The translations under genes were made by a program, and so were the position numbers. DNA of 64,000 nt from Actinocatenispora rupis (GTDB lineage Bacteria > Actinomycetota > Actinomycetes > Mycobacteriales > Micromonosporaceae). This document shows, one piece after another, positions 46,153 to 53,794 of this stretch (the first letter of the stretch is position 1; each line of letters opens with the position of its first letter). The notes beneath the pieces were generated by a model. The model was not told the origin of the DNA, did no database searches, and saw only the letters and a list, made by a program, of their open reading frames with translations. The stretch is from positions 124,001 through 188,000 of the forward strand of contig NZ_BOMB01000001.1 in NCBI RefSeq assembly GCF_016861975.1, written 5' to 3'.

Positions 46153-46158
46153 TAGACT
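46153..46158 (+). promoter_or_regulatory. -10 element of the leuS transcript
   Basis: TAGACT ends 6 nt before the ATG of the leucine-rich leader peptide, so the transcript should start at that ATG. No convincing -35 hexamer is visible. Confidence 0.6.
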
Positions 46159-46164
46159 GCCCGC

Positions 46165-46203
46165 ATGGCGACGTTCGGCCTGCTCCTTACCGGGCCGTGC
46201 TGA
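46165..46203 (+). CDS. Leucine-rich leader peptide of leuS
   Basis: A 12-codon ORF, MATFGLLLTGPC, with three consecutive leucine codons CTG-CTC-CTT and then TGA. It starts at the predicted transcript start (leaderless) and is followed by competing hairpins and an intrinsic terminator before leuS. This is the layout of a ribosome-mediated attenuator sensing charged leucyl-tRNA: a stall at the Leu codons would favour read-through. Confidence 0.75.
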   Translation: MATFGLLLTGPC

Positions 46204-46206
46204 GGT

Positions 46207-46265
46207 CGGTCGGGCGAGTCCCGACCGTGCGGCACGGCGAACCCCTCCTGCGCGAGGGGTTTTTT
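46207..46265 (+). terminator. Attenuator region of leuS
   Basis: Hairpin A: CGGTCGGG/CCCGACCG (46207-46227). Hairpin B: CCGTGC/GCACGG (46225-46237), overlapping A. Terminator: ACCCCTC (46241-46247), loop CTGCGC, GAGGGGT (46254-46260), with a run of six T at 46260-46265. GGCCGTGC at the leader-peptide end (46193-46200) can pair with GCACGGC (46232-46238), giving alternative folds. This is the only terminator in the window with a true T tract. Confidence 0.75.
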
Positions 46266-46334
46266 CATGCACGAAACCGCGGACCGACACCCGACCCGAT
46301 TCCGACATGACGACAGACAACGGTGGTGGAGACG

Positions 46335-49289
<2,955 letters not shown>

Positions 49290-53625: not shown

Positions 53626-53794
53626 ATGTCGCGCGCGACGAGACGGGGGCCGGGTCGCGCGCGGTGGCTGACTGGATGTCGTGCCGTGAGGTCTCCAGCC
53701 GCTCGACGGCTCCTGGTGCTACTTCCCCGGTGCCAGGCGCGATTGAGCGGATGGGGACCTGATGGCACGGATCGTTGGAGTTCGCCGCGAATGG

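Follow-up and report, generated by a model that had tools for sequence, protein, structure and literature searches.

A leader element upstream of leuS

Homologues of leuS, the gene for leucyl-tRNA synthetase, were found in all 60 relatives as well as in the genome that contains the 64,000-nucleotide stretch of Actinocatenispora rupis DNA analyzed here (the window). In the window leuS is preceded by a leader whose parts are listed in Table 1. The spacer between the hexamer TAGACT and the ATG at 46165 consists of six bases (GCCCGC), and the transcript is predicted to start at or beside the ATG of the 12-codon ORF. No −35 hexamer was recognisable in the window leader and none is conserved in the leaders of relatives. 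Downstream of the Leu codons, hairpin P2 is nested inside hairpin P1 and both adjoin the terminator, in which CCCCTC (46242-46247) pairs with GAGGGG (46254-46259) and is followed by six T residues (46260-46265). The initial annotation had described the hexamer 6 nt before the ATG and a 12-codon ORF with three successive leucine codons, and both are present. Of its terminator before leuS, the T6 run and the GC-rich stem stand, but the stem length of 7 bp is replaced by 9 bp in the predicted fold. Its overlapping hairpins were not recovered: P2 lies within P1 and shares no strand with the terminator, nor does P1.

Table 1 Parts of the leuS leader in the window
Feature	Position	Strand	Basis or remark
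-10 promoter hexamer TAGACT	46153..46158	+	direct sequence reading; TAnnnT at matching place in relatives
Leaderless leader peptide ORF, MATFGLLLTGPC	46165..46203	+	M A T F G L L L T G P C stop; 12 codons
Putative regulatory Leu codons CTG CTC CTT	46180..46188	+	last, CTT, is the conserved rare codon
P1 hairpin, 5' arm, over Pro-Cys-stop	46194..46202	+	conserved pairing, compensatory changes
Inner hairpin P2 (CGGTCGGG / CCCGACCG)	46207..46227	+	MFE fold; variable in relatives
P1 hairpin, 3' arm	46230..46238	+	fold and alignment; partner of 46194-46202, P2 enclosed
Intrinsic terminator, CCCCTC/GAGGGG with flanking pairs, then T6	46239..46265	+	fold, alignment
leuS, leucyl-tRNA synthetase, putatively regulated gene	46335..49289	+	homologues in 61/61 whole genomes and 80 contigs

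When both strands of the window were scanned for a hexamer of −10 type placed 6-7 nt ahead of a short Leu-Leu ORF, together with a terminator-like element no more than 110 nt away, a single case was found, against none in 100 dinucleotide shuffles. When the terminator was not required the shuffle mean was 0.04, which is also the expected count of TAGACT-N6-ATG alone. In an Rfam search of the window the leader matched no family, T-box and other curated leader RNAs included; the sole match was mraW RNA (RF01746) at 53673-53780 (+), with 72.1 bits and an E value of 1.6e-13.

Distribution in actinomycetes and relation to known leaders

We surveyed the leuS upstream regions of relatives (L004-L052) with a rule that required TAnnnT just before a short Leu-Leu ORF, at a spacing of 4-9 nt, and a T-run after it. 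The element was present in 43 of the 49 regions. Six regions gave no match to the rule (L023, L027, L041, L046, L050 and L052). Because a −10-like match and a T-run were demanded, figures for spacing and conservation cover only the leaders that passed; among these, TAnnnT lies 6-8 nt before the leader start codon, and 6-7 nt in all but 3. The peptides of relatives keep the pattern M-x(n)-LLL-xx-P[CR]-stop. All 79 loci of a further set (L054-L132), nearly all from Streptomycetaceae, also show the element, the peptide being mostly MRAVRLLLSEPR or MRAVRLLLSGPR. One other candidate, the second genome match of a 301-nt query (L002), was discarded as a 25-nt match in unrelated sequence.

At E <= 0.01, a covariance model (R1) built from 45 leaders on the joint alignment has matches in 128 of 297 genomes from the class, as a rule one per genome. 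The window leader aligns with Streptomyces leaders and the model recovers both, which we took as the mark of homology. Downstream leuS homology was seen in 32 of 40 distant matches that were fetched. Among the other eight, one (L176) ends at a contig end and seven are weak (E > 0.001). The confident matches stand before leuS. Two weak matches (L195 and L202) have a leader of the form MCQRATGCGKLLSTMNNGLLIIGRRAG, are ilvB-like and carry a terminator. A second, usually weaker match is present in G116, G148, G159, G188, G203, G267, G310 and G330, and the one in G267 (C5, L193) precedes a leuS homologue. In one family of the same order (f8) the model matched none of the 20 genomes listed and the rule found no leader before leuS in L050 and L052; as judged from these sequences the element seems to have been lost or replaced in this family. 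In all, the Leu leader peptide, the leaderless start, the terminator and their place before leuS, as given in the initial annotation, are conserved in relatives. A lack of conservation of the leader ORF or terminator had been named there as a result that would refute its reading; both are kept and the reading is not refuted.

Attenuators of this kind have been known in Streptomyces. Seliverstov and colleagues predicted classical leuS attenuators in 2005 in S. coelicolor and S. avermitilis, and stated that an antiterminator hairpin is present in them (PMC1262725); this hairpin may be equivalent to P1. The 2021 reannotation of S. lividans TK24 described leuL2 (MRAVRLLLSEPR followed by a stop codon), leaderless by its mapped start and followed by a hairpin and a U-run (PMC8079986). 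The transcription start has been mapped only in S. lividans (PMC8079986), and the leaderless start of the window leader is predicted from the position of its −10 hexamer. Like leuL2-leuS, and like the 79 Streptomycetaceae-type loci which have the same layout, the window has a 12-residue leaderless peptide with three Leu residues and a hairpin with a U-run before leuS. Its Leu-run ORF ahead of leuS, leaderless start, hairpin with U-run and homology to Streptomyces leaders are the features of the leuL2 type. It differs from leuL2 in the peptide (MATFGLLLTGPC instead of MRAVRLLLSEPR), in the P1 arm (CCGTGC instead of CCGCGC) and in the order of the first two Leu codons. The window element is thus a further case, in another family, of an attenuator already known from Streptomyces.

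Other leaders resemble it less closely. The leuA LEU element and leuL1 of actinomycetes also have a leaderless Leu-run peptide and serve leucine metabolism, but they have a pseudoknot and pairing of the Leu codons with the leuA Shine-Dalgarno sequence, and no typical terminator (PMC1262725, PMC8079986). Actinomycete ilvB leader attenuators likewise combine a terminator with a short ORF that contains branched-chain codons, and differ by their biosynthetic operon, mixed Ile/Val/Leu codons and other hairpins (PMC1262725, PMC13236596). The use of rare Leu codons (CUA) as control codons has long been known from the leu operon leader of Salmonella and E. coli, as cited in PMC1183508. The window leader would likewise use a rare Leu codon for control. 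The enteric leu leader, unlike that of the window, has a strand-sharing antiterminator and a Shine-Dalgarno-led leader peptide, and belongs to a biosynthetic operon.

Conserved pairing and spacing around the CUU codon

In the alignment P1 (GCCGTGC with GCACGGC) is paired in 315 of 315 cells across all 45 sequences, and two of its pairs are altered on both sides, most notably with U-A in 33 and C-G in 11 of the 45 rows. The terminator is paired in 97-98% of the cells, also with compensatory changes. In a control with slid partners pairing dropped to 36-54% of the cells. Leaders that stop early (CTTACCTAGCCGTGC, and CTTACCTAG before CCGTGC) still keep the Pro-Cys sequence although it is untranslated there, and in distant leaders the stop codon lies as far as 22 nt into P1. 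Conservation of the Pro-Cys sequence where it is not translated, together with the shifting position of the stop codon, indicates that the constraint acts on RNA pairing. Beyond the stem, after the T-run (46260-46270 in the window, and the corresponding site in relatives), 52 leaders have TG and 79 have TT at positions 9-10 past the last stem G. Those with TT seem to be of the Streptomyces type, and TG resembles a G-10 Y-1 G+1 pause signal.

The motif CTT-N5-GCC is found in 138 of the 144 leaders, which means that the conserved Leu codon nearest P1 is CUU and that it lies exactly 5 nt before the hairpin. In the order-level set CTT is preceded by 6 to 11 codons, and the stop position varies as well, whereas the distance from CUU to P1 is constant. 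The interval between P1 and the first CCC of the terminator is 2 nt in 117 of the 144 leaders and 1-3 nt in 140. CTT is a rare codon, accounting for 4 of the 265 Leu codons (1.5%) in six coding sequences of the window and for 0.1% of the Leu codons of Streptomyces leuS. Among the long tRNAs checked, the tRNA-Leu anticodons of the genome are GAG, CAG, CAA and UAA, so that CUC and CUU have one common reader, tRNA-Leu(GAG), and CUG is read by tRNA-Leu(CAG). The suggestion that several Leu isoacceptors are sensed consequently holds for two at most. A literature search on CUU and leader peptides, with subscription journals mostly outside its scope, returned no description of the CUU-P1 rule, and we did not find the CUU-P1 spacing or the proximity of P1 to the terminator described before.

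Possible mechanism and significance

On the strength of its sequence and of the comparison with relatives the element is very probably a Leu-codon attenuator of leuS, and we are fairly confident that it acts as a leucine-responsive, ribosome-mediated attenuator of leuS transcription. Replacement of candidate regulatory codons in the related S. coelicolor ilvB leader is reported in PMC1262725 to have had no effect, which counts against this explanation. We folded the leader with a 27-nt ribosome footprint masked, in four states: no ribosome, ribosome at the first Leu codon, at the last Leu codon and at the stop codon. P1 had a probability of 0.98 both with no ribosome and with the first Leu codon in the A site; the value fell to 0.40 for a ribosome at the last Leu codon and to 0.02 for one at the stop codon. 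The probability of the terminator was 0.73-0.76 in all four states. This indicates that the position of the ribosome governs P1 while leaving the terminator, as folded at equilibrium, unaffected; standard folding therefore yields no switch, which also counts against the explanation. The initial annotation had supposed that disruption of one or the other hairpin would let transcription reach leuS, and folding shows no relief of the terminator from that alone. Its basic reading of the element as a Leu-codon attenuator of leuS is very probably right, and its interpretation as a whole is partly supported.

The constancy of the terminator could also mean that termination is constitutive and that the ORF, without responding to leucine, only sets the basal level of leuS or yields a short RNA. 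We regard this as highly improbable, as a Leu run, a rare CUU codon and a fixed CUU-P1 spacing ahead of the leucyl-tRNA synthetase gene would be unexpected without leucine sensing.

We found no strand-sharing antiterminator: the terminator is unaffected by ribosome state and no alternative helix covaries. In the folding models, an antiterminator that excludes the terminator through a common strand, as in a classical attenuator, thus appears to be missing. Pairing of the terminator 5' arm with upstream sequence before the 3' arm emerges was discarded, with a mean of only 0.12-0.20 in all states. A classical arrangement could consist in a helix between the Leu-codon run and the terminator's 3' arm (CUCCUU with GAGGGG) as antiterminator. 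With the terminator forbidden, 92 of 111 leaders folded so that the Leu codons paired with the GGGG arm, at a median cost of 7 kcal/mol, and in L026 this helix is the best fold. However, it does not covary, shuffles do equally well, and weak pairing with G-runs is expected of any Leu run. CUU is retained though CUC would pair better with the terminator arm, and also where that arm has changed (L045 and L174). In addition, stalling of a ribosome at the Leu codons would prevent the helix from forming, giving the wrong sign, and we consider such a switch very unlikely.

In a further alternative P1 would promote termination, as a protector or pause hairpin, and a stalled ribosome would open it, read-through then following by another route. 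In favour of this are the E. coli trp leader, where termination is helped by a first hairpin that overlaps the control codons, and the drop of P1 probability to 0.40 with the ribosome at the last Leu codon in the mask model. However, we found no conserved downstream partner for the freed P1 arm. Pairing with the terminator loop or with a conserved RTGC past the T-run was rejected by eye, since changes in the aligned sequences do not match, those in the loop running opposite to what such pairing would need. A ribosome at the stop codon opens P1 still more than one stalled at Leu, so that starvation would equal plenty, and we find this alternative unlikely.

We infer, tentatively and with less than even confidence, that P1 itself could be the antiterminator, acting by abutment with no sharing of strands. 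When leucyl-tRNA is plentiful, the ribosome would reach the stop codon, cover the P1 5' arm and hold P1 open, and RNA polymerase would terminate ahead of leuS. When it is scarce, the ribosome would wait at the Leu codons. If CUU occupies the A site, P1 would start at the mRNA entry, 11 nt downstream from the first nucleotide of the P site, and could stay folded; abutting the base of the terminator, it would hinder completion of the latter and allow read-through into leuS. Counted downstream from the first P-site base, 11 nt fit into the bacterial mRNA channel (PMC7282821), so that a ribosome with CUU in the A site (3+3+5 nt) would leave P1 just intact. This, the dependence of P1 on ribosome position and the lack of a covarying strand-sharing helix favour P1 as an abutting antiterminator. 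Against this model, a stall at CUU with the 27-nt mask already opens part of P1. As binding of tRNA to the A site of E. coli ribosomes is inhibited by hairpins that lie 11-12 nt downstream from the first nucleotide of the P site (PMC7282821), P1 might also amplify the stall: placed at the mRNA entry by a rare, wobble-read CUU 5 nt before it, it would slow A-site tRNA binding, and the same hairpin would antiterminate by abutment. This extension is speculative and we hold it to be doubtful.

These results extend the Streptomyces leuS attenuator, in nearly unchanged form, to many actinomycete families, and the quality of the alignment suffices for an Rfam-type family. With the fixed geometry of CUU, P1 and terminator it can be tested whether attenuation works without a strand-sharing antiterminator and whether a hairpin tunes the sensing of codons. 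If P1 does amplify the stall, one hairpin would do both the sensing and the switching, without strand exchange, in a form conserved across the class.
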